This document shows positions 2,183 to 27,235 of a stretch of 30,909 nt of DNA, piece after piece; the first letter of the stretch is position 1; each line of letters opens with the position of its first letter. The stretch is from a virus. The DNA lies in the IMG/VR virus record IMGVR_UViG_3300028844_002561, positions 1 to 30,909 of that record, one strand, 5' to 3'. The notes below the pieces were generated by a model. The model was given only the letters and a program-made list of their open reading frames with translations, was not told where the DNA came from and did no database searches. The translations under genes and the position numbers were made by a program.

Positions 2183-2185
2183 GGT

Positions 2186-4744: not shown

Positions 4745-4754
4745 GACTGTCTCC

Positions 4755-5425: not shown

Positions 5426-5427
5426 AA

Positions 5428-6822: not shown

Positions 6823-6843
6823 AACACATCTCTAACTAGGGAT

Positions 6844-10790: not shown

Positions 10791-13474
10791 TGTGTTCTTG
10801 CTCTACGCCCAGGAACGTATGGTGTGTAATTACTCTCAACCATTTCCGGTACATAATACGGACTGATCTTCGGACGCTCCGTTATCGGTATGTCAATCAC
10901 AACATCATCCTCATCCTCTGTCTCTTCGGCAGGATCAGAAGACTCCGCAACCGAAGGCTCATCAATCCGTCCGCATATCGGTTGGCCCGTGGCAGGATCC
11001 AACACACGGCGATAACCGGGAGGACAACCTTGGGCATCATTACTATCATCTGTCATATCTACAGGAACAACAGCAGGGCGGTCATCACTAGGGCCGCTAG
11101 GTCCACCTTCCCTCTCCTCGGGAGGAAGAACATCGTCCGTGGGTAACTCAGGGAAGTATGGTGTTCCCTCTTGATCCTGAAGCTCTGTAAAATCTTTGCG
11201 CTCAGTATCAATGCCAGTAACAACTCGTCTTGTTGGCGGAACCTTACGCCGTTTCGCCGCGTCTTCAGCCGCATCCAAAGAACCCACGCCCTTCTTTAAC
11301 TCTGCTTCGGTGGGTGTCGGCCTTTGCGCCGCAGCTAACTCATTCTCTTGAGCCGCGAAACGCGCACGTTGACGCGCCAAACGGTTTTCAAGACTAAAGG
11401 GATCCGGACCTAAATCACTTTTTATTTTTTGATCCGTCAACACCAATGGTTCTAGACTAGTTGTATCTACCGGCGGAGTTCCTTCTTGAGATTTTAGGGC
11501 AGACACAGTTGAACGGACCTTTGGCATTGGCACTTTAGCCACCGCTTCCTCAAAGGATATCTCTGGATCAGTCACCGGTACTGCGGCGTCCATCGCCTCT
11601 GGAGCCTTTCCACCACGAATTATCCTTGAAGGCTTTAATGCTCCAATTCCTTTATCCTCAAGGTCCAAAAGCAACTGTTCCTCAAGAGATGGAAGAGGGC
11701 CAGTGAAATTAAAATCTCCTTGAACTGGGATGCTTGGTCCTTGCATTGGAGGTATAATATCCGGTTCACCAACAGATTCAGGTGAGGCGGCTACAAGCGG
11801 AGCCATCGCTGGGGCTTCTACGGGAGTAGTAAGGGCCGCTAACTGCGCTTTTGTTTGAGGAGTAGTAAACTCTGGGGTGGCTGGTAAGTTAACAGGCAAC
11901 GGTGTTTTACCCGACGCTATAACTTCGTTAACTGCCTGAAGCTGCTCCATTTGAGTGGCTAACTGATTAGCTAACGCAACCTCTTTTTCCGCTTCCGAAA
12001 CATCTGTCTGACTTCTAAGTATCGCATTCTGAGCAGTCTCCAAAGGCCGCATCGCCTCTGCTTCTGCTTCACCCTTCAAACGATTGGCAATCGCCCTGCG
12101 CCGATCAGCTTGCGCGGCCGGTGAATCTGTTAAAGAAATGTTAGACGGGAAGTTTCTTAATGATCCAATGCCAGCAGGATCTACAGGCAAACCGCTTAAA
12201 AGAGCCGCATCCGAGGCTTCAATAGCCTCAACTCCTGCGGCTTTTCCCGCCGCTTCCGTTTCACCACGTTCCTGTCGAGCAAGACGTTCCTTATTCATTT
12301 GTGCCGCTATTTGCTCTCCGGTGTACTGACCCTTAGCCGTTGGAGCAAGTCTTGACGGAACAAAATCATCCCTAATATTTCCATCAGCATCTCTGATAGA
12401 ATACTGTCTTGTACTGCCCATATCACCCAAGAGTAGCTCACTTTGAGTTTCTCGTTTGGGTACACGGCCAATAGTGTCTGGAGGAGTGGCGCCTAAGTTT
12501 GAACGACCCGCCTCTCTGTTTTCTTGAGCTTGCTGAAACGCTATGTCCTGAAGTTTAGTATCAAGATCAGTCCCAAGATTAAAATCAAAACCAAAAGGCA
12601 AGTAATCAGGTTTTTTCCTCAGTATTGCATCAACCACACCGCTTCTACCAGCCGCGGCGCCAACAGACTTTGGTTTGCCACCAGGAACAAGTAAATCAAA
12701 CTCTGCTTGAGCCTCGGGAGTAATCGCAGCCGCTTGCGCCGCAGCCGTATCAACTTGAGAAGGATCAAAGCCCCGCTGGTTTTCTAAACCAACTGGGCCA
12801 ACAAAGTTAGGATCACCTGAAACAGGGGCAACTGGGCCAACAAAGTTAGGATCACCAGCCACCGGAGCAAGCTGAAGAGGACCAATGAACTCCGAAGACC
12901 CTGGCCTAGGCACAGCAGGAAGAGGACCAACAAAGTCTGGGTCACCCGGAACAGGGATCGTGCCACTTAATACATCTGCCGCCGCCGCCACGGTAGGTTG
13001 TGTCGGGCCAATGAAGTTAGGATCACCCGCTTGAGGAATAGTCGGACCTTGAGAAGGTTGAAGCGGACCAACAAAACCTGGGTCACCCGGAACAGGGATA
13101 TTCGGTCCTTGCGGGGAAGGAAGAGGGCCAACAAAATCTGGATCACCCGGCTTGGGAGCAGATTCAATAGTCGGACCAACTCTAGATCGAGGTCCAAGAC
13201 CCAAACCTTGAGCCGCCGAAACGCCACCTGTCGCGGTGCTGCCACCAAGAAAACCAAGAATGCCAGACTCTTTGCGCTGGGCCGAAGTCTGCTTTAATGC
13301 CTGAGCATCGTTATACCAAGAAGGAATCTCCGCCTCAGCAATCTCCTGCATTCCCTCAGTCAAACCCTCAATTGCCATCCTAGATGCAGCTTCTACAGTC
13401 GGACCCACAACACCACGGCGCCCAGTTTGCGTGGCACCCTGAACCGCAGCCTTCTGAGAAATAGCCTTAGCCAA
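10787..13474 (-). CDS. Large repeat-rich virion-type protein, downstream part of an apparently frameshifted gene
   Basis: 895 aa if begun at the TTG at 13474, but no convincing ribosome-binding site is present there. The frame stays open upstream through a GAVTKPLAKAIS stretch into the end of the preceding ORF. Residues about 1-90 are helical and hydrophobic. About 105-235 hold seven copies of a GDPxFVGP element, with an eighth near 590. The middle is Ala/Glu-rich and helical. The C-terminus has CPPGYRRVLDPATGQPIC and a long acidic tail. Nothing enzymatic is recognised. The position directly before terL in a late operon suggests an internal virion or ejection protein; that is inference. Confidence 0.6.
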   Translation of the reverse strand: MAKAISQKAAVQGATQTGRRGVVGPTVEAASRMAIEGLTEGMQEIAEAEIPSWYNDAQALKQTSAQRKESGILGFLGGSTATGGVSAAQGLGLGPRSRVGPTIESAPKPGDPDFVGPLPSPQGPNIPVPGDPGFVGPLQPSQGPTIPQAGDPNFIGPTQPTVAAAADVLSGTIPVPGDPDFVGPLPAVPRPGSSEFIGPLQLAPVAGDPNFVGPVAPVSGDPNFVGPVGLENQRGFDPSQVDTAAAQAAAITPEAQAEFDLLVPGGKPKSVGAAAGRSGVVDAILRKKPDYLPFGFDFNLGTDLDTKLQDIAFQQAQENREAGRSNLGATPPDTIGRVPKRETQSELLLGDMGSTRQYSIRDADGNIRDDFVPSRLAPTAKGQYTGEQIAAQMNKERLARQERGETEAAGKAAGVEAIEASDAALLSGLPVDPAGIGSLRNFPSNISLTDSPAAQADRRRAIANRLKGEAEAEAMRPLETAQNAILRSQTDVSEAEKEVALANQLATQMEQLQAVNEVIASGKTPLPVNLPATPEFTTPQTKAQLAALTTPVEAPAMAPLVAASPESVGEPDIIPPMQGPSIPVQGDFNFTGPLPSLEEQLLLDLEDKGIGALKPSRIIRGGKAPEAMDAAVPVTDPEISFEEAVAKVPMPKVRSTVSALKSQEGTPPVDTTSLEPLVLTDQKIKSDLGPDPFSLENRLARQRARFAAQENELAAAQRPTPTEAELKKGVGSLDAAEDAAKRRKVPPTRRVVTGIDTERKDFTELQDQEGTPYFPELPTDDVLPPEEREGGPSGPSDDRPAVVPVDMTDDSNDAQGCPPGYRRVLDPATGQPICGRIDEPSVAESSDPAEETEDEDDVVIDIPITERPKISPYYVPEMVESNYTPYVPGRRARTQ
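11700..13165 (-). repeat. GDPxFVGP coding repeats
   Basis: Seven copies encoding a degenerate unit (GDPDFVGP, GDPGFVGP, GDPNFIGP, GSSEFIGP and similar, usually preceded by Pro-Val or Pro-Gln) lie between about 12780 and 13165. One outlier (GDFNFTGP) lies near 11700-11735. DNA-level copies such as caacaaagtctgggtcacc and close variants are alike, so the array probably grew by duplication. Unequal recombination in this tract could change copy number between relatives. Confidence 0.75.
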
Positions 13475-13478
13475 AGGC

Positions 13479-15527
13479 TTAGTAACCGCGCCATTTAAAA
13501 CAGAGAACCGCCTCAGCGTCAGAAAGACCCGTAGCCTTTAAATCCTGAAAACCAGGGGTGTTCTGTAAGCGTCCCTCGTCAAACTCCTTTTGAATAGCCC
13601 CCTCAATCTGAGAGTCCATGCCACCCACACCAAGAGTAACACCAGCAACAATAGCCGCCGGCAAACTAGCTACCGCTGCCGCAGTGCTAACCGCAATAGA
13701 AGGAGCCATGTTCGCCAACTTAGTGCCAACATTGTCAAAACTTAATTCACCTTCTAACTTCGCTTTTGCCTCATCACTCAAACGATCATATGCCGCCTGA
13801 GAGTTTGCAATAGCAGGATTAACAACCTTCTCTGTGTAAGCCTTTTGTAGATCCGTTTGCGGAGCCATAGCCTGCGCCATGGTTACATCACTATCAACAT
13901 CAGCGCGGCCAACCCCCGGTCCGCCTCCCCGGTAGCCAATAGTACGGAAAAGGTCAGTACCAAAATCAAGAGCTACATCGCCAGCCCGTGCAACAGTTTC
14001 AGGAAGGCTAGCCAAACCCTGCTCTAAAGCAGTAAGGTTCCTGTCCGGTGGATCACCCCTGTAAACTCGGCGCTGTAATCCAAACCGATCTGGGGCCGTT
14101 TCAAAAGCACGGTTGCCCCTAACTTCAGTCTGTAAAGCAGAATCCATCGGAGCCCCTATCAACTCGTCAGGAAGAACTGTATTATAAACATTCCCCTCAG
14201 TCTCAGAACCAGGGCCATCGCGCCGACCCGGAGGAACCGAAACAGCAGGAGAAGGCTGAGGTACAGGCAAACTTGCAACACCGCCGCCAGATGTAGTCTC
14301 CAACTGGGCGTTAGGGCCTAAAATGTTCTCGTTTAAAAACTTCCCAAAACCAGTGTCACCTAATCCAACAGAATCATAAGACGCTTCGTCAATAAAACGA
14401 TCAGAACCCTCTTGATCTCGACGCTGCTGTTGCTGAAACAATATGTCCCTAACAGACTCAGGCGCACTAGGCTGAACATCCAACATGTCAGGACGCCGAA
14501 CAGGTCGATCCGCTAACGCAGGATCACCACCACCTAACTCAGGACTATAAGTACTAGGACGAGAACCAGGATCAAACGAACTTAAAAAAAGCTCTGGATC
14601 CCCTCCCGGCGCCTTGGGAGCAGGCAATCCAAACGGAGCCGCGCCAATGCCCCCAGGACCATAAGCCGCGTCCTGATACAAACTATCATAATCAACAATC
14701 GGAGCCGCAGTAGGAGTAGTAGGGCGTAAATTAGGACGTAAACTGGTCTTGGGCGCCCGATCTATGTTAGTCGTAAACTGCTTGCCGCCATACGTGAACG
14801 TACCACCATCACCGCCAGCCTTCCGTCGAGCCTCAGCAAAAGCATCACCAAATGAACTCGCCTCACCACTCAATGAACCACTGTTCATAATCGCGTCAAC
14901 CTCACGCGATCCAGAGAAATTTGAACCAGCTACAGTGCCACCATTCTTCTTAACACTGCCACCCTTCGTAACCTCATATCCAGCATCCGTTAACGCCTTG
15001 CGCTGCGCCGAAGTCATACCCTTCGTACCAATGCGCTGACGAGGAGGGCGAGGTGCCGATGATCCGCCACCAAAAGCACGAACCGCAGCACCCAACGCTC
15101 CGCCACTACGAGCGTAATTGCCAACAGCAGAAAATATATTCTGATCTAATGGATTAGCCCTAGCCTCAGCAGCACTCACATAACCATCGTTGTTCGTGTC
15201 AGCCCTAGAACCACCGCCACTGCCCGATACAGCGCCAGACTTGCCAGGACCACCGCCGTCAAACATATCAGCCAAACTAGTGTAACCGCCTAACGAACCG
15301 CCAGTGGATGCTTTAGAACTAGCCGTGGACATCTTTTTGTCATAACTCTTGTCCGCAAACTCAACCTTCTGACGGCCCTTGCCCTTGATGTTTACAGCAT
15401 TGCCATGCTGACCATCACGCGCAGCCTCAGATAAACTGTTGTAAGTCTTGTCAGAACCGCCGCCGCCGCTGCCGCCCTCGTCACCACCACCCCAAACAAC
15501 CCGTGGCCTCTGCCAAACACTGAACAT
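13479..15527 (-). CDS. Large Gly-rich protein with EF-hand-like loop, upstream part of an apparently frameshifted gene
   Basis: 682 aa from the ATG at 15527 (GGGGA 5 bases upstream). The N-terminal about 110 residues are Gly/Ser-rich. Residues 110-121 read DTNNDGYVSAAE, matching the 12-residue EF-hand calcium loop (D-x-N-x-D-G-x-V-x-x-x-E). The middle is Pro/Gly-rich and disordered. Residues about 610-650 are hydrophobic (NMAPSIAVSTAAAVASLPAA). The frame then reaches LSDAEAVLCFKWRGY and stops. One base fewer in the TTTT run just before would continue into the following ORF, giving a protein of roughly 1,580 aa. The first part follows the HlyC-like gene directly. Confidence 0.6.
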   Translation of the reverse strand: MFSVWQRPRVVWGGGDEGGSGGGGSDKTYNSLSEAARDGQHGNAVNIKGKGRQKVEFADKSYDKKMSTASSKASTGGSLGGYTSLADMFDGGGPGKSGAVSGSGGGSRADTNNDGYVSAAEARANPLDQNIFSAVGNYARSGGALGAAVRAFGGGSSAPRPPRQRIGTKGMTSAQRKALTDAGYEVTKGGSVKKNGGTVAGSNFSGSREVDAIMNSGSLSGEASSFGDAFAEARRKAGGDGGTFTYGGKQFTTNIDRAPKTSLRPNLRPTTPTAAPIVDYDSLYQDAAYGPGGIGAAPFGLPAPKAPGGDPELFLSSFDPGSRPSTYSPELGGGDPALADRPVRRPDMLDVQPSAPESVRDILFQQQQRRDQEGSDRFIDEASYDSVGLGDTGFGKFLNENILGPNAQLETTSGGGVASLPVPQPSPAVSVPPGRRDGPGSETEGNVYNTVLPDELIGAPMDSALQTEVRGNRAFETAPDRFGLQRRVYRGDPPDRNLTALEQGLASLPETVARAGDVALDFGTDLFRTIGYRGGGPGVGRADVDSDVTMAQAMAPQTDLQKAYTEKVVNPAIANSQAAYDRLSDEAKAKLEGELSFDNVGTKLANMAPSIAVSTAAAVASLPAAIVAGVTLGVGGMDSQIEGAIQKEFDEGRLQNTPGFQDLKATGLSDAEAVLCFKWRGY

Positions 15528-15530
15528 CAA

Positions 15531-15923
15531 TCAAATTCCCCTGTTTAAAACCGAAGCTAACCTCGATCCGCGGTGCGAACGTATCCGAATAATCTCCGGA
15601 AACTCTCGATTGAAAAAATCCCGAACATCCCTTGATATAAACAATACATCAGAAAGACCCCCCTTGGCAATCATATCTATAACAACCAAACAATCACCGT
15701 AATCACGGGAAAATACCTCCAATCCACAATACTCATTGGAAATGTACTCCGCATCCGTCAAAAATGCCCAACTCACAAAACCCATGTAACGATCACCGTC
15801 CCAATAATGACGTACCCTCCCAGCAGCCTCAGCAGGCAATAATCGCCAACCAATCGTCGCTGACCGAAAACCGCAATACGGCTCCTCACTGCACCACAAC
15901 TCAATCGCATTCAATAAACCCAT
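15531..15923 (-). CDS. HlyC-like (RTX toxin-activating type) lysine acyltransferase homologue
   Basis: 130 aa. The order of motifs follows HlyC: LLPAEAAGR (LPAI..), then YMGFVSWAFLTDAEY (PVAYCSWANLSLENE), YGDCLVVIDMIA (SGDRKWFIDWIA) with Asp 83 in the position of the catalytic Asp, and FNREFPEIIRIR (FPDELFRAIRV). HlyC enzymes move a fatty acyl group from ACP to toxin lysines. The catalytic His of HlyC (His23, after S-P-L) aligns with Cys 17 in EEPYCGF, so activity is uncertain. It is the first gene of the late operon, just before the large Gly-rich EF-hand protein. No Shine-Dalgarno is seen before the ATG. Confidence 0.72.
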   Translation of the reverse strand: MGLLNAIELWCSEEPYCGFRSATIGWRLLPAEAAGRVRHYWDGDRYMGFVSWAFLTDAEYISNEYCGLEVFSRDYGDCLVVIDMIAKGGLSDVLFISRDVRDFFNREFPEIIRIRSHRGSRLASVLNRGI

Positions 15924-16191
15924 ATGAAACTATATACCGCATATTTTGAAGGCCAATCAAGGACCATGGTCCCAAATGGAAAAATACCGGAATGAATTTA
16001 CCGGACCTACTTTTACAGCCTGCTACGTGCGACCGTAGCCGGGTTTTGGGGGGTGTGGGGTCGGCCGATTGCTCTAGATTCCCATGGCATCGCGTCCAGT
16101 AACCCCTAGGCTTGCGCCGGTATAGCGTGTCACTGCGCCGCTGGTATCGGTATTTTTTTGTCTATGTGGTCCGATATGGTCTGTTTTTGTG
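15924..16191. other. Divergent intergenic region between late and early operons
   Basis: No gene is seen. Contents are: the candidate leftward promoter near 15931-15960; a 6-bp perfect inverted repeat (GCTACG at 16022-16027, CGTAGC at 16034-16039); a G-rich run at about 16040-16064 with three blocks of three or more G; and several CTAG tetranucleotides. The rightward promoter and operator begin at 16192. Confidence 0.55.
15931..15960 (-). promoter_or_regulatory. Candidate late-operon promoter (minus strand)
   Basis: TTGATT at 15960-15955 and TATATA at 15936-15931 are separated by 18 bases on the minus strand. The predicted start of transcription falls within a few bases of the ATG at 15923, so the first message would be nearly leaderless, consistent with no Shine-Dalgarno before that ATG. 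The match is moderate, and late promoters of this phage could use a different factor. Confidence 0.35.
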
Positions 16192-16221
16192 TTGACAAGC
16201 ACCCGAATCATCGCCTAGATT
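16192..16221 (+). promoter_or_regulatory. Rightward early promoter
   Basis: A perfect TTGACA (16192-16197) is followed after 18 bases by TAGATT (16216-16221), a 4-of-6 match to TATAAT. It sits 53 bases upstream of the first early gene and is the only good rightward promoter in the intergenic region. It should drive the module 16274-17226. Confidence 0.6.
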
Positions 16222-16230
16222 ACATCTAGG
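16214..16230. promoter_or_regulatory. Candidate operator palindrome over the -10 and start site
   Basis: CCTAGAT, a 3-base spacer TAC, then ATCTAGG form a perfect 7+3+7 inverted repeat. It covers the -10 element and the predicted transcription start of the early promoter. Such a dyad is what a dimeric repressor would use to shut off early transcription. No repressor gene is assigned to it. Confidence 0.5.
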
Positions 16231-16273
16231 GAAAGCAAAACGCGGACCTAGTTAATCAGAAAAGAGGTAAGAC

Positions 16274-16609
16274 ATGACACTCATTAACCTAGTATCGGAA
16301 AAGACTCTTGAGGTAGTATCGCCAAGCGCAAGCGAACAAGCGATCCTCGCGGCACGTATTGACGCAATCAAAGCATTGCAGAAAAGCCTAGGCGCGATGC
16401 TTAAAGAGGACCAAGCGACGGCCGTCGCGAACGGTTTCGCAGAATATAAAGTATCAGACGTTCGCACAGCGCCAAAAGTATCGGACTTTGAAACACTAGC
16501 ACAGAACGGACATAGCGACCTAAGCAAGCTAGAACTACGTGGCATTGCTAAGATGTTTGCTCTATTCGCTAAGACAGGAACACGGAACACATTCCGCTGG
16601 ATCGACTAG
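16274..16609 (+). CDS. Early protein, unknown
   Basis: 111 aa, first gene of the rightward early module. The N-terminal half is helical and Ala-rich (LAARIDAIKALQKSLGAML). The C-terminus is basic and ends NTFRWID. No domain is recognised. A good AGAGG lies 7 bases before ATG. It is followed by two perfect hairpins and a palindrome before the next gene. First-expressed phage genes often encode host-takeover proteins, but nothing in the sequence shows which target. Confidence 0.65.
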   Translation: MTLINLVSEKTLEVVSPSASEQAILAARIDAIKALQKSLGAMLKEDQATAVANGFAEYKVSDVRTAPKVSDFETLAQNGHSDLSKLELRGIAKMFALFAKTGTRNTFRWID

Positions 16610-16621
16610 GCAAGATATGGC

Positions 16622-16677
16622 CGGCACCCTAGCAATAGGGTGCCGTAACATATCAATCCTGATATGACACCGGCCGG
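16622..16677 (+). other. Hairpin group after the first early gene
   Basis: Three perfect inverted repeats in a row: arms 16622-16630 and 16637-16645 (9 bp, loop of 6), arms 16649-16655 and 16660-16666 (7 bp, loop ATCC), and the 8-base palindrome CCGGCCGG at 16670-16677. None is followed by a T run, so they look like RNA-stabilising, processing or regulatory structures rather than simple terminators. Confidence 0.65.
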
Positions 16678-16712
16678 ATCGCGGCCAACCCAGAAGAGAA
16701 AGAGGTAAAACA

Positions 16713-16916
16713 ATGCGGATTAAACTAGAGTATATCGAGGTACAGATGCTAATTGCAGGGCTCGATGCAATGCATTTGCCGACTATCATGCACGATGAAG
16801 TGAAAAAGAAATTGAAGCGGCGCCTGGAGCGCATGGAGTCTGATTTCACTGGATCCTATGCCGATACTGCTATCGGCAAAAAGATTGAAGCGGCCGTCGA
16901 TAAGATCGACGCATAA
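16713..16916 (+). CDS. Small helical early protein, unknown
   Basis: 67 aa, highly charged and helical (KKKLKRRLERMES). An N-terminal strand-like segment is followed by a long amphipathic helix. AGAGG precedes the ATG by 8 bases. It is flanked on both sides by hairpins, so it forms a self-contained cassette with its own leader. No family is recognised. Confidence 0.6.
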   Translation: MRIKLEYIEVQMLIAGLDAMHLPTIMHDEVKKKLKRRLERMESDFTGSYADTAIGKKIEAAVDKIDA

Positions 16917-16925
16917 ACCTAGACC

Positions 16926-16952
16926 GGCTAGCCTATGTGATGTAGGCTAGCC
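16926..16952 (+). other. 10-bp perfect hairpin after the second early gene
   Basis: GGCTAGCCTA (16926-16935), a 7-base loop, and TAGGCTAGCC (16943-16952). There is no T tract. The arm includes ACCGGCTAGC, which is also the first part of the 36-bp-spaced repeats at 17347-17439, so the hairpin and the repeats share sequence. Confidence 0.7.
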
Positions 16953-16980
16953 ATACGTTAATCAGAAAAGAGGAAAGACA

Positions 16981-17226
16981 ATGCCAGATATTTATTGCGG
17001 ACACTGCGGCGAACCATGGGAGATGGACACGCTACACGATGTAGTAAGTGAGGGTAACGCAACGAACTATCGCGATGCCGCGCACAAGTTCACTAAGTTC
17101 GGATGCGGCATTATGATGTACCCTACGACCGGCACATGTACTAATCCGGTAGTGGATCAATACGCGGCGGACCGTGCAAGAGTGAACCATATCATGTCGC
17201 CGCATCCAGATGAATGGATGGAATAG
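16981..17226 (+). CDS. Zinc-ribbon-like early protein
   Basis: 81 aa. The N-terminus IYCGHCGEPWEMDTLHD has a CxxC knuckle followed by EPWE and LHD. I remember this motif from many small phage proteins (often in actinophages), whose role is unknown. Further Cys occur in FGCG and GTCTN and could complete a zinc site with His residues. It carries the 17-base repeated leader and is followed by a strong terminator, so it closes the first transcription unit. Confidence 0.68.
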   Translation: MPDIYCGHCGEPWEMDTLHDVVSEGNATNYRDAAHKFTKFGCGIMMYPTTGTCTNPVVDQYAADRARVNHIMSPHPDEWME

Positions 17227-17232
17227 AACCAA

Positions 17233-17258
17233 GGGCGCCCTAGCGGCGCCCTTTTTTT
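17233..17258 (+). terminator. Rho-independent terminator
   Basis: GGGCGCC (17233-17239), loop CTAGC, GGCGCCC (17245-17251), then seven T. It ends the first early unit six bases after the stop codon at 17226. Confidence 0.93.
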
Positions 17259-17284
17259 GTGCCGAGGGCGCCTAGGATCTAAGC

Positions 17285-17439
17285 GCAGGCCTGCCGGCGA
17301 ACGGCAAACGCGCAGGGCGCAGGGCGCAGAACATGATAGAGATCGACCGGCTAGCGGGGGCGCAGACATCTATAGATATATACCGGCTAGCGGGGGCGCA
17401 GACATACCGGCCGGCAGGCCTGCTAGCGGGGGCGCAGAC
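17285..17439. repeat. G-rich direct-repeat cluster 1, bracketed by an inverted repeat
   Basis: This 361-base gene-free stretch (17227-17587) holds three tandem 7-mers GCGCAGG/GCGCAGA at 17310-17330. Three copies of GCTAGCGGGGGCGCAGAC start at 17350, 17386 and 17422, exactly 36 bases apart; the first two match over 23 bases. A 13-base sequence GCAGGCCTGCCGG (17285-17297) recurs inverted at 17411-17423. Iteron-like arrays of this sort are found in replication origins and in partition or recombination sites; which applies here cannot be told from sequence. Confidence 0.75.
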
Positions 17440-17587
17440 CGGCACCTTGGAGCCGCGGGGCTCGATGGAAAGACCAGCCGGCACCCGTTTATTTTTGACT
17501 ATATAGACCTACAAATATGTTGCCGCTGCGCGACCGATACTATAGACTAAACCTACGTTAACTAGAAACAGGAAAGGAATCCGACTC

Positions 17588-18286
17588 ATGAAATCCGGTA
17601 TCATATACAAAGGGCAAAGCCTCTTGGATGGTAAACCCGTTGTTGCCATTGCAACATATAGCGACCGCAACACAAAGACAGGCAAGGTTTTACAGACCTA
17701 TATAATCCGGTCAGACATCTCCCCACTAGACGCAAGCAAAACGGGCGCAGACTTCTCTATCTGTGGTGACTGTAAATTCAGGGGGACACCGACCGATGAC
17801 CCTAATCGCAAGCAAGCGGTCAAGCGTGACTGTTATGTAAACCTAGGGCAAGGTCCGACTATAGTTTATAAATCATTCTTACGTGGTACTTATCCCATGG
17901 CAGACAATAGGGGGGACCGTATGACACTCGGGGCCGGCCGTGTTGTTAGACTTGGAACATATGGGGATCCTGCCGCTATTCCGTCATGGGTATGGGATCA
18001 ACTATTGACCAGTTGCGCGACTCATCTGGCATACACGCATCAATCTGGATTTCGTCCAGATATTGCAATGCAGTCGGCCGATACAAGAGCGGAAGCGGTC
18101 GCGCATTGGAACAACGGCCGGCGGACGTTCCGAGTCATTACGGACCTAGGCGATATCGTAAAAGGTAAAGAGATCCTTTGTCCCGCAAGCAAAGAAGCCG
18201 GCCGGCGGGTGCAATGTAACGCCTGTAAATTATGCGGGGGCAATAGCACGAAATCATCTAAATCAATTGCCATTGTTCAACACTAA
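17588..18286 (+). CDS. Conserved phage/plasmid Cys-rich protein of unknown function
   Basis: 232 aa. It matches a widespread hypothetical family I recognise by its motif order: SICGDCKFR (CxxC), CYVNLGQGP, RLGTYGDPAAIP, YTHQSG, a central S-x-DT-x-x-EA segment, then CPASKEAGRRVQCNACKLCGG with a CxxCxxC cluster, and a closing SIAIVQH. The Cys pattern suggests bound metal (zinc or possibly iron-sulfur). No activity is established to my knowledge. It is the largest gene of the early module and sits directly after repeat cluster 1, with a variant of the repeated leader before its ATG. Confidence 0.72.
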   Translation: MKSGIIYKGQSLLDGKPVVAIATYSDRNTKTGKVLQTYIIRSDISPLDASKTGADFSICGDCKFRGTPTDDPNRKQAVKRDCYVNLGQGPTIVYKSFLRGTYPMADNRGDRMTLGAGRVVRLGTYGDPAAIPSWVWDQLLTSCATHLAYTHQSGFRPDIAMQSADTRAEAVAHWNNGRRTFRVITDLGDIVKGKEILCPASKEAGRRVQCNACKLCGGNSTKSSKSIAIVQH

Positions 18287-18299
18287 TGGCACAATCAAC

Positions 18300-18320
18300 G
18301 CGGGGGCATTGTGTCCCCGC
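18300..18320 (+). other. Hairpin with TTG triloop (copy 1)
   Basis: GCGGGGGCA, loop TTG, TGTCCCCGC forms a 9-bp stem with one G-T pair. The inner 19 bases (18301-18319) are identical to the hairpin at 18573-18591. No T tract follows; instead the leader with the next Shine-Dalgarno follows after an ACTAGTA. Confidence 0.75.
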
Positions 18321-18340
18321 ACTAGTAAAGAGGAAAGACT

Positions 18341-18568
18341 ATGTACCTTAAAGATCAAAAGACGCTAGACGAACTAGTCGGCATGTTAGAATATAAACTG
18401 GAAATATTAATGGATGACATGCCAGATGCGCCGGTCACAGAGGATTTGGAAAGCGTTGTAATACCGACCATTCGAAAACTTAAAGTACCGGTTCATTATA
18501 ATCCGGACACATTGCCAAATCTTATGGGAGATTATGTCACCGCAGCATATGAAAATATGCAGGAATAA
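18341..18568 (+). CDS. Small acidic early protein, unknown
   Basis: 75 aa. The N-terminus is helical and acidic (LDELVGMLEYKLEILMDDM), followed by a Pro/Val-rich middle. AGAGGAAAG lies just before the ATG. It is framed by two copies of the same hairpin (18300 and 18573), as if it were an inserted cassette. The coding end also contains GCATAT-GAAA-ATATGC (18545-18560). No family is recognised. Confidence 0.58.
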   Translation: MYLKDQKTLDELVGMLEYKLEILMDDMPDAPVTEDLESVVIPTIRKLKVPVHYNPDTLPNLMGDYVTAAYENMQE

Positions 18569-18572
18569 AGAA

Positions 18573-18591
18573 CGGGGGCATTGTGTCCCCG
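18573..18591 (+). other. Hairpin with TTG triloop (copy 2)
   Basis: CGGGGGCA, TTG, TGTCCCCG: 19 bases identical to the core of the hairpin at 18300-18320, and again followed by ACTAGTA and a Shine-Dalgarno. The two copies bracket one small gene. Confidence 0.75.
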
Positions 18592-18612
18592 ACTAGTAGA
18601 TAGGAAAACCAA

Positions 18613-18804
18613 ATGGACTATGAAGCAGCACGAAATCTAGCAGACCAGATTGAAAAAGAGGTGAATAAAAAGCCTGATTTCTGGACACAAGATATGTATT
18701 GGAACAAGTGTAGAACCATTGTTGAAATGAGGCATCCTAAAATGGATGTCATGAAACAAGCCGAGCTTGTCGGCAAAATGATGCAAGAAAAGTTCCCGTC
18801 ATGA
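18613..18804 (+). CDS. Small helical early protein, unknown
   Basis: 63 aa. It is helical and charged, with NLADQIEKEVNKKPDFWTQD near the start and a Met-rich C-terminal helix. Its stop overlaps the next start as ATGA (18801), so the two are translationally coupled. This is the only coupled pair in the early module. No domain is recognised. Confidence 0.58.
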   Translation: MDYEAARNLADQIEKEVNKKPDFWTQDMYWNKCRTIVEMRHPKMDVMKQAELVGKMMQEKFPS

Positions 18805-19193
18805 TTAGCGCGGAGATCTCTTGCGATATCGCATCCCTTGCCATTGAGGCAGGGGACACGATCTTCACCTTGGCAAACGACATAAGCGCAGACGGGGGCT
18901 TTAACGTTTACATATATCTAGATCCTAAAGACATTGAGACATCAGAAGACGCAGAGTTGATGCACTCCATCATGGATGCGCGGAGTGGCGCATTCCTACA
19001 GCGTCTGGTAGTCGGGCCCAGACAGGCACGGATTTGCTGGTCTGATTGCTATGATCCTTACCAGACAGAGATGAACAAGGTAATTTATGAGGATCAAGGG
19101 CGCAGCCCCTATGCTGCAACACTACAACAAGGGCGCTATGATGTATTCTGCTATTATGGTGATTGGCACTTTGTACGGGCGGGGGATTTATAA
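18801..19193 (+). CDS. Early protein, unknown
   Basis: 130 aa. Mixed alpha/beta with no membrane segment. Features are a VYIYLDPKDIETSEDAEL stretch in the middle and an aromatic C-terminus (YDVFCYYGDWHFVRAG). It is the last gene of the early module, with a terminator 11 bases downstream and repeat cluster 2 beyond. The coding sequence around 19096 contains a lone GGGCGCAG like the repeat core. Confidence 0.6.
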   Translation: MISAEISCDIASLAIEAGDTIFTLANDISADGGFNVYIYLDPKDIETSEDAELMHSIMDARSGAFLQRLVVGPRQARICWSDCYDPYQTEMNKVIYEDQGRSPYAATLQQGRYDVFCYYGDWHFVRAGDL

Positions 19194-19203
19194 CGACACA
19201 AGA

Positions 19204-19244
19204 GGCGGCGCTGGGGATTTCCCTGGCGCCGCCCCATTTTTTTT
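19204..19244 (+). terminator. Strong rho-independent terminator closing the early module
   Basis: GGCGGCGC (19204-19211) pairs with GCGCCGCC (19226-19233). The stem is continued by GGGG/CCCT pairing inside and followed by CCCA and eight T (19237-19244). It separates the rightward module from repeat cluster 2 and the opposing nuclease gene. Confidence 0.92.
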
Positions 19245-19264
19245 CACATACACATTAGAGCGAA

Positions 19265-19461
19265 GGCGCAGGGCGCAGACCGGTTGGCCGGCCACCTCGA
19301 TCGGGGGCGCAGGGATCCGGAGAAGTTAACAAACATACCCTAAATGTTAACCAGCTAGCGGGGGCGCAGACCTGCGGAGCCCGAACCCTGACGCGGGGGC
19401 GCAGAAATTAGGGCGCAGGGGCGCAGACACCTGCGTAATGATTAAGCAAGCGGGGGCGCAG
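19265..19461. repeat. G-rich direct-repeat cluster 2
   Basis: Five GGGGCGCAG cores occur near 19303, 19362, 19395, 19418 and 19452, mostly as GCGGGGGCGCAG. The copy at 19354-19372 is the full GCTAGCGGGGGCGCAGAC of cluster 1. Shorter GGGCGCAG units lie at 19265-19278 and 19411. A 7-bp inverted repeat GTTAACA/TGTTAAC lies at 19325-19351. All copies face the same way as in cluster 1. The last copies run into the 3' end of the nuclease gene. Confidence 0.72.
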
Positions 19462-19830
19462 GGCCGTGAACACGGCACCAACGTCCCCGAAAACATGTCC
19501 AACCCCGCATTTCAACCCCTTTTCCATGAGGAATGGGCCTTGATCCCCCCCAAATAGATGCAAGGAACGGTCAGAGAGGCTCTTGACTAAGAAGAAACAC
19601 GCGCCCCCTCGCGACCAATACTGCATATTCCACGCGACTTGATGAGATCGGAGATTGACTGCATTGCTTTTGCTTGTCTTCAATTCAATCCAGAAGGGTA
19701 ATCCATCCCAGATTACATGCACATCGGGAACTCCCCCGCCATGTACGTTCTCAATCCGTGTCGCTGATGCCTTCGGCGGTAAGTTCTGCCTTATCGTGTT
19801 CCAAAAGTTCGCCTCTGGTCCCTTTGACAT
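19408..19830 (-). CDS. VRR-NUC-type nuclease
   Basis: 140 aa. The segment GGGVPDVHVIWDGLPFWIEL followed by KTSKSNAVNLRSHQVAWN matches the VRR-NUC branch of PD-(D/E)XK nucleases: GxPD, then ExK (IELKTS), then S-x-x-Q-x-x-W. Such enzymes act on branched DNA and are common next to phage packaging or recombination genes. The start overlaps the terminase small subunit by 80 bases in another frame, supported by AAGGA 8 bases upstream. The last about 20 residues (ending VCAPAP) are encoded by repeat cluster 2, so that tail is probably not part of the fold. Confidence 0.82.
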   Translation of the reverse strand: MSKGPEANFWNTIRQNLPPKASATRIENVHGGGVPDVHVIWDGLPFWIELKTSKSNAVNLRSHQVAWNMQYWSRGGACFFLVKSLSDRSLHLFGGDQGPFLMEKGLKCGVGHVFGDVGAVFTALRPRLLNHYAGVCAPAP

Positions 19831-20740: not shown

Positions 20741-21136
20741 ATGGAACTCCAAGATATATTTAACAAGGCATCTGAGCATTTATCCGCGATGTCTGGTCCG
20801 TGTATGCGGAACCGTTCTTGTGTTTATCGTGATGGCAAGGGCGGCATGTGTGCTGTTGGTGTGTTCATTACTGATGAGCATTACACTCCGGAGATTGAGA
20901 GCATTGGGATTGCTGATGGCAATCGTGGTGATTTGGTTCGTGACGTTGTTGCGCGGTCTTTGGGTTTGAAAGCATTGACCCGTGATCAGTTGTCTTTGTT
21001 TGCTGCTTTACAGGATGTTCATGACGAGTGGGATTGTGACGTTCGTTTTGCCGCAGAATCTGAAGATCACTCTGATGTTATGGAGAGGAATTTAGAGAAC
21101 GTCCGCAACCGTTTTGATTTGGAGTGCTTGTCATGA
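20741..21136 (+). CDS. Small Cys-containing phage protein, unknown
   Basis: 131 aa. The N-terminal segment CMRNRSCVYRDGKGGMCAVG, followed by FITDEHY, matches a pattern (C-x-Y-R...G-x-x-C-A-V-G-x-x-I-x-D-E-x-Y) that I remember from many short phage proteins without known role. The rest is helical and acidic. It opens the rightward operon, with AGGAAGG just before the ATG, and its end overlaps the next start (ATGA at 21133). Confidence 0.66.
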   Translation: MELQDIFNKASEHLSAMSGPCMRNRSCVYRDGKGGMCAVGVFITDEHYTPEIESIGIADGNRGDLVRDVVARSLGLKALTRDQLSLFAALQDVHDEWDCDVRFAAESEDHSDVMERNLENVRNRFDLECLS

Positions 21137-21639
21137 ATTTGGAATTGAAATCTATTAAGTACACTGAGTGGATGTCTGAGGAGACATTGTGTTTTACTGC
21201 CAATCTTTGGGTAGATGGCAAGGTCTTTGCTGAGGTTAGCAATCAGGGTCATGGCGGTTGCACTGACGTTCACATGCATTGCAAGTCTGAGTTTGGCAAG
21301 GCTGGCAAGCGGACTTCTTTTTATCGTGTATTAAAAGAGGTTGAGGCTCATTGTAATGCGATGCCTAATCTTGAGCCGTGTGAATTGTTTGAGGAAGGTT
21401 TGCCCATGGACTTAGAACTGTGGTGCAATCTTGAGGTTGAGGCTTGGTTGGCGCGGCGTGATATGAAGCGCAAGTTAAAGTCTCATGTTTTGTTTCAAGT
21501 TGAGGGTAGCAATGGCATTTTCCAGACCAAGTACCATCCTACTGTCACTGATGGTTCGTGGAATAATGGTCGGCGTATTTTGAACGACATGCCTTTGGAA
21601 GCGGCTTTGGAGATTTGGAACTCACGGAGTTTTAACTGA
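21133..21639 (+). CDS. Phage protein with His/Cys N-terminal motif, unknown
   Basis: 168 aa from the ATG at 21133, which has GGAG 8 bases upstream and overlaps the previous stop. The N-terminal half carries EETLCFTANLWVDGK and NQGHGGCTDVHMHC, a GHGGCTD motif I have seen in small phage proteins of unknown function. The C-terminal half contains tandem Trp/Leu-rich helices. Metal binding by the His/Cys cluster is possible but unproven. Confidence 0.6.
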   Translation: MNLELKSIKYTEWMSEETLCFTANLWVDGKVFAEVSNQGHGGCTDVHMHCKSEFGKAGKRTSFYRVLKEVEAHCNAMPNLEPCELFEEGLPMDLELWCNLEVEAWLARRDMKRKLKSHVLFQVEGSNGIFQTKYHPTVTDGSWNNGRRILNDMPLEAALEIWNSRSFN

Positions 21640-21866
21640 TGCCCTCGCTTTGGTTCACACCTACGGATCCTCGCAATACTGCGGGGGTTCGTTCTTTGTT
21701 GGTTGCTGTATACGAGCGGTGGATTAATGAGAATGGCTTTGGTGATTATGTTGGCGATGCCATGGATTTGGCTTTGGAGGATGCGTCCACCCTGTCTCAC
21801 TGTCAGCGCAATTTCGTGAATGCATACATTAGATTATGGGAGGCTATGGAAGATGGCGATTATTAG
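21639..21866 (+). CDS. Small protein, unknown
   Basis: 75 aa, starting at an ATG that overlaps the previous stop (TGATG). It has an aromatic, Asn-rich core with one Cys. No motif is recognised. It overlaps the next gene by 14 bases, continuing the coupled chain. Confidence 0.55.
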   Translation: MPSLWFTPTDPRNTAGVRSLLVAVYERWINENGFGDYVGDAMDLALEDASTLSHCQRNFVNAYIRLWEAMEDGDY

Positions 21867-22275
21867 ACCGGATCAATACGTTGAGTTGTACTCTGAGTTA
21901 GCAGAGATGATGTTGGAAGCGAACAACGGTGACGAGATTTTGTTGGTGACTGATGCGAATGGCGATGAGCGTTACACGGAAGCCGCGCAAGATCGGTTCA
22001 ACGATTACTGTGAAGATGTTGAGTCTGTTTTGTTGGCGAACAACATTGTTGGTGAGCAATATTTGTCTGAGAACAATGTAGATCGTAACCTTCGCCTGTT
22101 GGTGAAGGCTACAATTTCGGCTTTTGAGTACAACGTTTTGCAAGTTGCTCTTGATCACATGATTGAGCATCAGGAAGGCATTCAGTCGGATGATGTGCCA
22201 TGCGATGATGCTGAGTGGGATGACATTTGCAAGAGGTTGCAAGCCGCCAAGAAATTGAAGGCTTTGTTTTCATGA
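21853..22275 (+). CDS. Acidic helical protein, unknown
   Basis: 140 aa from the ATG at 21853. It is strongly acidic and helical throughout, with one Cys pair region near the end (VPCDDAEWDDICKRL). Acidic all-helical proteins of this size in phage early operons include DNA mimics and inhibitors of host defences, but nothing beyond composition suggests that here. Its stop overlaps the methyltransferase start (ATGA). Confidence 0.55.
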   Translation: MAIIRPDQYVELYSELAEMMLEANNGDEILLVTDANGDERYTEAAQDRFNDYCEDVESVLLANNIVGEQYLSENNVDRNLRLLVKATISAFEYNVLQVALDHMIEHQEGIQSDDVPCDDAEWDDICKRLQAAKKLKALFS

Positions 22276-23420
22276 GTGCGTATTACAATGAGATAGATCC
22301 GTTTGCCGCTGATTGGCTCCGCAACTTAATTGGTGCGGGGTTAATTGCGGATGGTGTAGTGGACGAGAGGAGCATCAGTGATGTCAGACCAGAGGAACTT
22401 TTTGAATTTACTCAGTGCCACTTCTTCGCAGGAATTGGCGTCTGGAGCCACGCACTCAGGGGTGCGGGATGGGACGATGACCGGCCGGTCTGGACGGGAT
22501 CCTGTCCGTGTCAGCCTTTCAGCGGGGCAGGCAAGAGAGCGGGGATTGCTGACAAGCGGCACTTATTCCCAGATTGGTTCCACCTCATCCGCGAGTGCCG
22601 ACCTGCAACGGTCTTTGGAGAACAGGTTGCGAGTAAAGACGGGCTTGGTTGGATCGACCTTGTACAAGCTGACATGGAAGGAGAGGGCTACGCCTTTGCA
22701 CCGTTCGATTTGTGCGCTTCGGGCTTCGGTGCGCCGCACATCAGGCAACGATTGTGGTTCGTGGCCCACTCCGACCACGCGGGATCACAAGGGCGGATAT
22801 CAGGGTGGACGCATTCGGAACGGCAAGATCAGCACGGATACATTGGATGTGACGGCACAGTTGACGGGATGGCCGACCCCGAATGCGACCAACAACGGTC
22901 GGGGCGAGGAACCGGACGCGAAGGTCAAGCGGGGCATGAATGCGGGGTTGAACCCAGCGGACGCGGCGAGGCTAGCGGGATGGACAACACCGGCGGCATC
23001 GGACGGCACGCGGGGCGGCACGGGAATTACGGCGGGGATGTCCGGATCGAGTTTGACGCAACTGTCGAAGATGTCGGGCTGGCCCACTCCTCAAGTAGCG
23101 GACGACAATATGAGCCGCGTATCAAATCCTCAAGAGTACAGTCGCAAGAGATTGGAAACGAGGAACGCAGGCCAGAACTTGGCGGACACGGCTCAAGCCT
23201 TGGTTCAGGCGCAAAGACTAACGGTGTCTGGCGAGATGCAGACTGGCTCTATTGCAGGGATGGAAAGTGGAGGCCAGTTGAACCCTTCACATTCCCGCTG
23301 GCTAATGGGATTGCCGGGCGCGTGGGACGATGCCGCGCCTACGGGAACGCGATTGTCTCGGAAGTCGCGCAAGGATTAATCAGTAGTTTTATAGAAGGAG
23401 AGAGAGATGGCACGATTTGA
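22272..23420 (+). CDS. C5-cytosine DNA methyltransferase
   Basis: 382 aa. Motif I FFAGIG at residues 51-56 binds AdoMet. Motif [12 protein letters not shown] gives the PCQ loop with catalytic Cys at about residue 80. Motif VI appears as FGEQVA (Glu 117 in place of the usual ENV start), and motif VIII is IRQRLWFV at about 157-164. A long Gly/Ser/Arg-rich segment (170-330) stands where the target-recognition domain would be, and the end [13 protein letters not shown] is motif X-like. Methylation of phage DNA would protect it from host restriction. The middle and end are overlapped by a complete ORF in another frame. Confidence 0.88.
22381..23379 (+). CDS. Nested ORF inside the methyltransferase gene, unknown product
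   Basis: 332 codons wholly inside the methyltransferase gene, in the +1 frame. The ATG at 22381 has the strong site AGAGGAG with an 8-base spacer (22366-22372). The protein shows a [14 protein letters not shown] motif and a [12 protein letters not shown] motif, then four WPTP/WTTP repeats (at [37 protein letters not shown]), and ends [20 protein letters not shown] then [10 protein letters not shown] recall separate phage proteins with these same motifs, which suggests the frame is a real gene, though I cannot run a search. Function is unknown. Confidence 0.62.
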
Positions 23421-23577
23421 GTGTGTAATAACAATTAAGGTAAATCCAGTACGTGAGGCGGAAAGCCGTGAGGAATTTATTGAAAAAATTATTGAGGAAT
23501 ACAACGATCAATGTTTTGGCTTGTTTGATATTGACGCATCAGATTTGTCAGAAATTACAGAAGGAGAGAGAGAATGA
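23407..23577 (+). CDS. Small protein, unknown (56 aa)
   Basis: 56 aa: ATG at 23407 after GAAGGAG, stop overlapping the next start (ATGA at 23574). It is an acidic alpha/beta protein with FIEKIIEEYNDQCFGLFDI in the middle. Its own strong ribosome-binding site and coupling on the 3' side support it as a real gene despite its size. The 14-base overlap with the methyltransferase end also fits the operon style. Confidence 0.62.
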   Translation: MARFECVITIKVNPVREAESREEFIEKIIEEYNDQCFGLFDIDASDLSEITEGERE

Positions 23578-23813
23578 CTGACGAGTATGACTACAGAAAA
23601 CGCATGAGTGCTTTAAACAAGGCGGCGTATGCCGCTGTTGGGGTGTGTCCACATAAGTATCCGCACCCTACCTTTAAGGCCTTGGTTAAGATTTGTCATG
23701 AGATTGACGCTCTTATTGATGATGAGACATGGGGCAGGGACAACATGCCGCCTGATGAGTGGACCGCTGCGGGTGGATTGAAGGCATTTTGTAAACAGCA
23801 AGGAGAGAAGTAA
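23574..23813 (+). CDS. Small protein with Cys/His, unknown
   Basis: 79 aa. It is helical, with VGVCPHKYPHPTF and a second Cys segment (KICHEIDAL), so a metal site is possible. AGAAGGAGAGAG lies before its ATG, which overlaps the previous stop. It ends two codons before the next gene's TAATG junction. Confidence 0.56.
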   Translation: MTDEYDYRKRMSALNKAAYAAVGVCPHKYPHPTFKALVKICHEIDALIDDETWGRDNMPPDEWTAAGGLKAFCKQQGEK

Positions 23814-24265
23814 TGGGATTAGATGCATATTTAATTGCGGAGCGGAACAACACTACAACGAGTGTTGTGAAGGGAAAGTATGAGGCTGTTGACCGGCCAA
23901 CGGAAGCGGTCGGTCACGTAAAGACGGGGGACGCAGAGTTGCGTCCTTCTGAGGTTTGCTGGCCTATTGCCTCGGTCCGGTTGGAGATCCAGTACTGGCG
24001 CAAGCACTGGGATTTGCATGAGTTAATTAACCAGAGCTATGCAAGCCCTGATCAGTACAACGAAAACCCTATGAAGGTGTATTTATCTTCTGATAATTTG
24101 CGGGAGATTGCGGCTAAGATCCGCGATGATTTAACGGAGGACGCAGACCCTCGGTATCGTCACCATACAGAAAGGGAGGAGTACGCTAAGAAGTTTGATT
24201 TAGCGGCTGATTGGATTGAGTTCGATGGGTGGAACAGATCGGTTTATTATCGGGGAGATTTCTGA
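23813..24265 (+). CDS. Conserved phage 'MGLDxYL' protein, unknown
   Basis: 150 aa. It begins MGLDAYLIA and contains IQYWRKHWDLHELI and YLSSDNLREI, the pattern of a common phage family in my memory whose members begin MGLDMYL and carry YWRKANxIHxW. The function is not known. A C-terminal YAKKFDLAADWIE helix ends the protein. It starts at a TAATG junction and ends at TGATG, so it is coupled at both ends. Confidence 0.66.
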   Translation: MGLDAYLIAERNNTTTSVVKGKYEAVDRPTEAVGHVKTGDAELRPSEVCWPIASVRLEIQYWRKHWDLHELINQSYASPDQYNENPMKVYLSSDNLREIAAKIRDDLTEDADPRYRHHTEREEYAKKFDLAADWIEFDGWNRSVYYRGDF

Positions 24266-24447
24266 TGCTTGATTACACTTGGGGCGCAAGCACCGTTGCT
24301 ACTAAGTACGTGCATCAACGGTTGCATGAGGTTTTGGACATGGAGGATAATGACTCTATGTCCATAGCGTTGTCTCAGTTTTATGCTGAGTTAGCGGAAA
24401 ACTATTACAAGGACACGGGTCAAAGGATTGGTGATCCGCATGATTGA
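24265..24447 (+). CDS. Small helical protein, unknown
   Basis: 60 aa from the ATG at 24265 (overlapping the previous stop; GGGGAG upstream). The sequence is helical with SQFYAELAENYY. No family is recognised. Confidence 0.55.
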   Translation: MLDYTWGASTVATKYVHQRLHEVLDMEDNDSMSIALSQFYAELAENYYKDTGQRIGDPHD

Positions 24448-24601
24448 GTGTCCGGAGTGCAGTTACACTGGTCACAAGGGCATGGTTGAGAAGACCTTGT
24501 ACCAGCGGTTTGGCGAAACGTTAGAGCCGGTAGCTGAGTGGGTTGCTTGTGAGAATTGTGATGGTTCTGGCGAAGTGGAGCCTGATGATGAGTACGCATA
24601 G
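24440..24601 (+). CDS. DnaJ-type zinc-ribbon micro-protein (53 aa)
   Basis: 53 aa: ATG at 24440, TAG at 24599-24601. Two CxxC pairs are clear: IECPECSYTGHKG at the start, and ACENCDGSGEV near the end. CxxC...CxxCxGxG pairs are the zinc-finger pattern of the DnaJ Cys-rich domain and of small phage zinc ribbons. The gene overlaps both neighbours by a few bases. A structural or nucleic-acid-binding role is likely, but no function is known. Confidence 0.66.
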   Translation: MIECPECSYTGHKGMVEKTLYQRFGETLEPVAEWVACENCDGSGEVEPDDEYA

Positions 24602-24821
24602 CGTTAAGGCAAAGTCGCGGCATCCAGGGGCGCCGCGACAACATTTCAAGGTCGCTCATCTGACCTTTGAATTAACTGATACCACGTTTGCATTGATAGC
24701 TGGTGAGGCGGTCTTGGAGAAGGACCGCCGGCCATTGTTTACGGGTGTTATAACCAAGGGCATAGCCACTGAGTTGCGTAGGTTGGCCCATCATTTTGAC
24801 GAGAGGGAAGATAAACTGTGA
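24588..24821 (+). CDS. Small protein, unknown
   Basis: 77 aa from the ATG at 24588 (GGAG 7 bases upstream; an adjacent ATG at 24585 is too close). The N-terminus is basic (THSVKAKSRHPGAPRQHF), then a Leu/Thr-rich region, and a GIATELRRLAHHFDER helix at the end. No motif is recognised. It is coupled by a GTGA overlap to the HTH gene that follows. Confidence 0.55.
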   Translation: MSTHSVKAKSRHPGAPRQHFKVAHLTFELTDTTFALIAGEAVLEKDRRPLFTGVITKGIATELRRLAHHFDEREDKL

Positions 24822-25114
24822 ATGCATCAGAAAGAAGACAGAGAGTATTGGACGTTGCCGCTGCGGAGAACAAGCGGATGTTGGAACAGTATGGGTATCG
24901 AGGTCCGAATTACGGCATTAAAAATGAGGTTGTTGAGGGGCGCATTGGCAGGTTTGCTACCAAGCAGGGGCGTCCATTGCAGTTAAATTCTAAGATTATC
25001 ATGAACATGACTAAGCAGGGGCGCAACGCGGATGAGATTGCCGCTGCCTTAAACATGCAACGCAAGAGCGTAATTCGCACGGCGCTCAGACATGGTATAG
25101 ATATCATTAAGTGA
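24818..25114 (+). CDS. Helix-turn-helix protein, likely small DNA-binding regulator
   Basis: 98 aa, GTG start overlapping the previous stop. The C-terminal third IIMNMTKQGRNADEIAAALN then MQRKSVIRTALRH reads as a classic HTH (helix, turn at the Gly-Arg-Asn, recognition helix). This is similar in shape to resolvase-type or HTH_38-like domains. The N-terminus is charged and helical. A regulator in the middle of this operon could be the one acting on the motif arrays at 16214 or 20461, but this is only a suggestion. Confidence 0.6.
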   Translation: MNASERRQRVLDVAAAENKRMLEQYGYRGPNYGIKNEVVEGRIGRFATKQGRPLQLNSKIIMNMTKQGRNADEIAAALNMQRKSVIRTALRHGIDIIK

Positions 25115-25196
25115 TGGTGAGAGGCGGCGGTGAACATGGTAAGGTTTCAGTTGAATAAGCCGCCCCTCATAAAAAGTATATCAAAGGACGCAGAGA

Positions 25197-25822: not shown

Positions 25823-25832
25823 GGAGTTTAAT

Positions 25833-27219: not shown

Positions 27220-27235
27220 AAAGGACTGATGAGTA

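Follow-up and report, generated by a model that had tools for sequence, protein, structure and literature searches.

Conserved RNA hairpin linkers in a viral small-gene block, one of them a putative variant of the T7-type RNase III site

The IMG/VR virus contig IMGVR_UViG_3300028844_002561 (30,909 nucleotides; the whole of this stretch is referred to here as the window) carries a block of small and presumably early genes on the + strand, g1 to g7, several of which are separated by hairpin-forming linkers: A between g1 and g2, B between g2 and g3, C between g4 and g5 and C', a second copy of C, between g5 and g6. Judged from sequence comparison, these linkers are shown to be conserved elements that function as coding-strand RNA, that stand at a fixed spacing between stop codon and Shine-Dalgarno site and that persist while the flanking genes are exchanged. 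The likeliest role of A, on our analysis, would be in message processing or stability. More specifically, A may be a T7-like ribonuclease III (RNase III) site, cut cotranscriptionally, after which the downstream message would refold into a 5' hairpin; we hold this reading tentatively, at somewhat short of an even chance.

The original prediction had placed a strong hairpin between successive early genes, and all of the hairpins that it named are present at positions correct to within a few bases. The stem at 16622-16645 has 10 bp, instead of 9 bp, and a GCAA loop, and 16649-16655 can form 7 bp with 16660-16666. Hairpin B (16926-16952, + strand; 10-12 bp, beginning 8-9 nt past the stop codon) has 10 bp plus one U-G pair in the window, hairpin C (18300-18320, + strand; invariant apex CAUUGUG) has 9 bp including one G-U, and C' (18573-18591, + strand) has 8 bp including one G-U and is identical to 18301-18319. 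Perfect stems of at least 9 bp number five in 16201-19250 against 0.37 in shuffles (shuffle maximum 2), with none in 1-16200, and stems of at least 8 bp in the same region number ten against 1.1 (maximum 5). Among near relatives a stem of at least 9 bp is found in 36 of 82 intergenic gaps, where shuffles give an expectation of 0.25. A, B, C and C', the four hairpins that lack a T run, are each preceded by a stop codon and followed by a Shine-Dalgarno leader. The leader, AGAAAAGAGG(T/A)AAGACA at 16258, 16696, 16964 and 18324, is near-identical before g1, g2, g3 and g5 (the g2 and g3 leaders extend over 16688-16712 and 16957-16980, + strand), with a weaker version, TAGATAGGAAAACC, at 18592 before g6. 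It had been claimed that each hairpin is followed by such a leader; this holds for A, B and C, is diluted at g6 and fails at the terminator at 17231, which is separated from the next start codon (17588) by about 330 nt of non-coding repeats. Since the g1 leader (16251) stands with no linker hairpin in front of it, leader and hairpin are separate modules.

The restriction of T runs to terminators, also noted originally, was confirmed. The only intrinsic terminators in 16201-19250 are T1 (17231-17258, + strand; 9 bp, stem 17231-17253, then seven T) and T2 (19204-19240, + strand; 13 bp, then eight T), the second of which was missing from the original list. Strong GC stems directly past stop codons could in principle serve as weak terminators or attenuators between early genes, but the eight bases that follow A, B and C contain at most three T as against at least six at T1 and T2. 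With the coding strand devoid of a T run at these hairpins, termination or antitermination by A, B and C is unsupported, and we consider attenuation very unlikely.

Relatives were gathered by scans with g1, g2, g3 and g4, giving about 120 loci, many of them overlapping and most of them fragments, for which genes were called in this analysis; scan settings (stem lengths, loop sizes) were fixed after the first examples had been seen. Across these relatives the hairpin sequences change while the pairing persists. In A (alignment A3, 11 distinct elements) two-sided changes affect 11 of 16 pairs and the covariation score is 0.605 against 0.226, with slid controls far lower, while in B (alignment A4, 11 elements) three of 12 pairs are two-sided, accompanied by G-U changes; neither score was reached in any of 500 shuffles, counts that do not amount to probabilities when sequences are related. 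C (alignment A5) is 100% paired, four pairs varying one-sidedly by way of G-U and none on both sides. The non-standard cells of all three alignments are C-C, U-U or A-G and never A-C, and the non-Watson-Crick pairs are G-U. Because a G-U pair on the coding strand would be A-C on the other strand, the consistent lack of A-C argues that it is the coding-strand RNA that is under selection. The built-in RNA structure that had been proposed is therefore well founded for A and B, which covary strongly with G-U as the sole tolerated wobble; the search for compensating changes by comparative folding succeeds in these two and is half answered in C, where the changes are one-sided.

The earlier view of the block as modular gene cassettes was likewise supported. 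Upstream of linker B stands one of two families (g2 or an inserted open reading frame) and downstream one of two others (g3 or MPNPFGKTR), and all four pairings occur; C, although always behind g4, precedes five different downstream gene families. The unit C-g5-C' is reduced to a single C in L004, L005, L007, L008 and L009, one copy of C and g5 having been lost together. The type of A assorts independently of the upstream gene (g1 with type I in the window and with type II in L004; another gene with type I in L011 and with type II in L012), and L014 has two A elements ahead of different genes. Linker homology may offer a simple route for such exchange. The free assortment of gene families around the linkers, the loss of g5 (the expected outcome of recombination between C and C') and the fact that two of the strands of A, up and down, are near-direct repeats would also accord with a function at the level of DNA, in which the inverted repeats would be operators or recombination sites and gene exchange would be driven by the homology of the linkers. 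However, wobble by G-U and never A-C, GNRA loops and a constant orientation and stop/start position are features of RNA, and recombination may be a consequence of the linkers and not their function; of the explanations considered this is the least probable. Mosaic phage genomes are known to contain short conserved linker or boundary sequences between exchanged genes, from which the linkers of the window differ in being structured, covarying RNA beyond sequence conservation.

B and C are simple stems and, as modelled, seem more like stabilisers, barriers or insulators. Intercistronic CUUCGG hairpins, simple stable stems between genes with no T run, are familiar from T4 and other phages, and some relatives have exactly such a hairpin at the position of C, which in more distant relatives holds GGGGCCUUCGGGCCCC; the hairpins of the window have other loops, and A is two-tiered and bistable. 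It could be proposed that all of the linkers are plain intergenic stabilisers without specific processing, blocking 3' exonucleases or insulating the next ribosome site in the manner of repetitive extragenic palindromic (REP) elements or the T4 hairpins. The single perfect stems of B and C, the distant relatives with GGGGCCUUCGGGCCCC and the retention of a hairpin while its sequence changes all suit this proposal, which nevertheless does not predict the two tiers, internal loop and third strand of A-type elements and which we regard as unlikely. In more distant relatives (L120, 2942-3276) g2 is flanked on both sides by a repeated hairpin (GCGGCCGG-ATCCA-CCGGCCGC and GCCGGCCGG-ATCCA-CCGGCCGGC) that replaces A and B. 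An extra 8-bp stem (TGCCATTG/TAATGGCA, 18268-18291) spans the stop codon of g4 just ahead of C; in L019-L025 a C-A mismatch interrupts it. The C hairpin was also seen, as GCGGGG-N-CATTGTG-N-CCCCGC, in the unrelated contigs L091, L095/L097 and L099, flanked by stop codon and Shine-Dalgarno site in L091 and L095/L097; these three unrelated sources compare with well under one expected on a rough estimate. The idea of C as a host or mobile repeat was rejected, as a 21-mer pattern gave eight scattered matches across unrelated phyla in 257 Gb and three unrelated phage contexts, few enough for near-chance or simple convergence.

Element A (16607-16666, + strand) consists of the stop codon, an up strand (16614-16619), the P3 hairpin (16622-16631 with 16636-16645) closed by a GNRA loop (16632-16635), a mid strand (16649-16654) and a down strand (16660-16666). 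Its description as two hairpins of 9 and 7 bp does not correspond to the best fold, since 16649-16654 pairs better with 16614-16619 to form a composite stem, which leaves the second hairpin as an alternative state. The minimum-energy fold is a single long stem in which 16607-16610 pairs with 16658-16661 and 16614-16619 with 16649-16654, followed by a 2x3 internal loop and 10 bp with the GCAA loop (z = -6.3 for 16607-16672). With 10 + 6 + 4 bp interrupted by 2x3 and 3x3 loops this irregular two-tier stem reaches the ~20 bp of T7-type sites, as no shuffle did. A-like geometry was found in seven of 70 gaps of near relatives (0 in five shuffles) and 11 of 189 others (shuffles 0 to 1). The loop is GNRA (GCAA, GAAA or GCGA) in eight of 11 rows and a hexaloop in the remainder. 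In 13 of 13 A elements, which follow at least four types of upstream gene, the distance from stop codon to up strand is 4-5 nt, and in several relatives the stop codon itself lies inside the stem. Covariation of the outermost stem with stop codon identity was seen in L047, L048, L073 and L170 but is not general and is not claimed. Between A and the g2 leader lies a further hairpin, A3 (16672-16686, + strand; 5 bp, GGCCG-GATCG-CGGCC), which reads GGCGC-GGATC-GCGCC in L010 and is missing from short-form elements.

The down strand of A competes with the up strand for the mid strand, and the mid:down pairing is significant in the window (p=0.005). The long, up:mid state is better by 2-5 kcal/mol than the state in which the up strand is masked; once it is masked, the mid:down hairpin forms in 11 of 11 A variants. 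In L004-type elements all three strands are altered together (TACATAG, CTATGTAGA, TCTACATA), and the same three-strand plan recurs in unrelated sequence as GUUUCGG/CCGAAGC/GCUUC (L073, L167), GUAUCGG/CCGAUGC/GCAUC (L048, L172), UAGUGG/CCACUGC/GCAGU (L035, L037, L040), UAGCGG/CCGCUGC/GCAGC (L077) and UAGCCC/GGGCUGC/GCAGC (L080). These other families were found by shape and not by sequence; matches of a covariance model of A to 100 loci (its E-values being rough) were confined to the window's own lineage. Two-tier matches numbered 102 in 7,699 post-stop segments against 9-13 in shuffles. Among elements picked regardless of a third strand, mid:down pairing has p<=0.05 in 17 of 21 distinct elements, corresponding to 12 of 14 distinct, though not all independent, middle strands. 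In families 2 and 3 up:mid covaries and mid:down is 100% paired, with triple changes from U/A/U to A/U/A and from U/A/U to C/G/C, and one mid base is always U-G with the up strand and G-C with the down strand. In the scanned parts of the cultured relatives taken as controls, HTVC027P, DSL-LC04, CRP-901, CRP-810 and CRP-118 there were scattered two-tier matches only, no intergenic one having a third strand. No Rfam 15 family exceeded its gathering cut-off in the window region or in 23 relative loci (best sub-threshold match in the window region, E 0.73), and no description of three-strand elements was found in the open-access literature, most subscription journals lying outside the search.

The closest known counterparts to A are the RNase III sites of T7, in which the early transcript, polycistronic and 7 kb long, is cleaved at five places by the RNase III of the host (PMC4858673). 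At R1.1 the cut is at a single bond and yields 47 + 13 nt (PMC4858673), and an alphaproteobacterial RNase III also cuts this site (PMC6121014). Like A, the T7 sites (R0.3, R0.5, R1, R1.1 and R1.3) lie between early genes, in RNA transcribed by the host polymerase, as would presumably be the case in the window. In the RNAfold geometry A has an upper stem of 10 bp, a loop of 4, a 2x3 internal loop and a lower stem of 6 bp, R1 has 9 bp, a loop of 4, 2x3 and 5 bp, and the upper stem is of 9 bp in R0.3 and of 10 bp in R1.1, each with a loop of 4 and 2x3, the loop being GCAA in both as it is in A. The same scan recovers R1 and a second T7 site at ~36.8 kb, right after stop codons. The window phage belongs to a different group with no sequence similarity to T7, and the likeness is in predicted fold only. 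The location of A between the g1 stop and the g2 leader, with one promoter-like site upstream (a sigma70-like TTGACA-N18-TAGATT at 16192-16221, + strand, by consensus match only) and terminators at 17231 and 19204, would fit placement in a polycistronic message. Unlike A, the two recovered T7 sites lack a significant third strand (p=0.22 for R1 and 0.38), and in a longer fold of R1.1 the middle strand lies in a 3' hairpin (AUUGACC/GGUUAAU). In view of the p value of 0.005 for mid:down in A as against 0.22 in R1, A would be a variant of the T7-type site and not a plain member. The predicted mid:down state also resembles the T7 gene 10 leader and other 5' stabilisers, in which a stem-loop precedes an A-rich Shine-Dalgarno leader, although in A the 5' stem-loop would exist only once freed from the longer stem.

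As a processing site A would function as follows. The early message would be transcribed as one piece by host RNA polymerase and cut by RNase III on the 3' side of the internal loop of A. The g1 message would retain the P3 hairpin at its 3' end, while the g2 message would begin at or near the mid strand, which, released from the up strand, could pair with the down strand and give this message a stem-loop at its 5' end, ahead of the Shine-Dalgarno site. Both products would thus end up with a protective fold, and the two tiers and three strands would be explained together. A ribosome finishing the upstream gene would keep the cleavable stem open; since the up strand follows the stop codon by 4-5 nt, the terminating ribosome could in this way tie processing to translation. 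The same spacing, constant despite different upstream genes, suggests a competition between the stem and translation termination, and cleavage is not the only possible outcome. In a translation-sensing switch without cleavage the ribosome at the upstream stop would mask the up strand and let mid pair with down, changing access to the next start or the coupling of the genes. In addition to the spacing, the stop codons lying within the stem, the mid:down hairpin formed on masking in every variant and the mid base of families 2 and 3, as if tuned to both partners, point in this direction. The leader is, however, outside both helices in either state, which makes it not obvious how the next gene would be affected, computed accessibility of the sites is uneven and uninformative, and the match to T7 site geometry is left unexplained. 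Such a switch, which we think rather improbable as the sole function, and the cleavage model are not mutually exclusive.

Several observations weigh against A as a T7-like processing site, or against its extension to the other linkers and families. The published internal loop of R1.1 is 4/5 nt (PMC6121014), unlike the 2x3 given by RNAfold, and the match between A and T7 is for this reason one between modelled shapes. B (12 bp) and C (9 bp) have no second tier, so that a single mechanism does not account for every linker; C is moreover without two-sided covariation, and in an alternative fold, in which C would pair with sequence beyond the stop codon, triple covariation was suspected by eye but did not rise above shuffles, and the fold was rejected. 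Eight partial records yielded no gene for RNase III, and a host enzyme must be assumed. The middle strands make up about three or four unrelated groups, and binomial figures for the third strand therefore overstate the evidence; covariation of mid:down in families 2 and 3 comes to a single changed pair per family, the signal in family 3 being weak (58 of 500). The element after g3 in L136, L137 and L139 is two-tiered with no third strand. The elements after g3 homologs in L136 (1675-1770) and L138 (1454-1545) fold to ~22-bp stems with small internal loops, and the L136 type is, on this folding, a second kind of two-tier intergenic RNA.

Taken more broadly, the elements may represent a widespread and undescribed class of viral intercistronic RNA, anchored to the stop codon and built of three strands, in which mid would pair first with up, as a cleavable T7-like stem, and then with down after the cut or masking by the ribosome, leaving both halves hairpin-ended and processing tied to upstream translation. 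We are more doubtful of this generalisation than of the cleavage of A itself. If true, T7's way of dividing an early message into units that are stable on their own would be shared by phages far removed from it, which would add a refolding step lacking in the T7 sites examined. Such an element would be a compact and portable part, keeping genes apart and shielding the RNA at both ends; it would account for the free exchange of small early genes, each of which retains its own unit of expression, and would connect translation termination with RNA processing in a way that is open to test.

The phage is a marine one, and the large terminase of the 30.9 kb window is 57-60% identical to those of Pelagibacter phage HTVC027P and phage 023Pt_psg01. 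Structural genes occupy the - strand at 1-15923, followed by the small-gene block on the + strand (16274-19193) and then by the terminase small subunit on the - strand. The genes of HTVC027P between its two terminase genes occupy a place comparable to that of the block, and the genes that HTVC027P expresses early are all of unknown function (PMC12753301); it is from this comparison that the block is taken to be early. Within the block, all on the + strand, g1 (16274-16609, 111 aa) has no family and is replaced by divergent genes in relatives, g2 (16713-16916, 67 aa) is the constant neighbour downstream of A in relatives, g3 (16981-17226, 81 aa) has no Pfam or PHROG family and g4 (17588-18286, 232 aa) belongs to phrog_2554 (function unknown). 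They are followed by g5 (18341-18568, 75 aa), missing from the five loci with a single C, g6 (18613-18804, 63 aa) and g7 (18801-19193, 130 aa), the start codon of which overlaps the g6 stop.

Behind T1 and T2 lie non-coding zones (17257-17480 and 19240-19480) full of + strand repeats, CTAGCGGGGGCGCAGAC and GGGCGCAG, spaced partly at 36 nt (17356, 17392, 17428). GGGCGCAG has 15 copies on the + strand of the window and 0 on the - strand, and near relatives have similar arrays; these repeats are possible replication-origin iterons or binding sites. Adjoining the structural genes, a 130-aa protein encoded at 15531-15923 on the - strand matches the Pfam family HlyC (RTX toxin acyltransferase family; E 6.9e-7, above cut-off) and is possibly an acyltransferase acting on a phage protein. 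The next gene block on the + strand (20741-27627) is unlike the first: its genes are tightly packed, their starts overlapping, and gaps and linker hairpins are all but absent.

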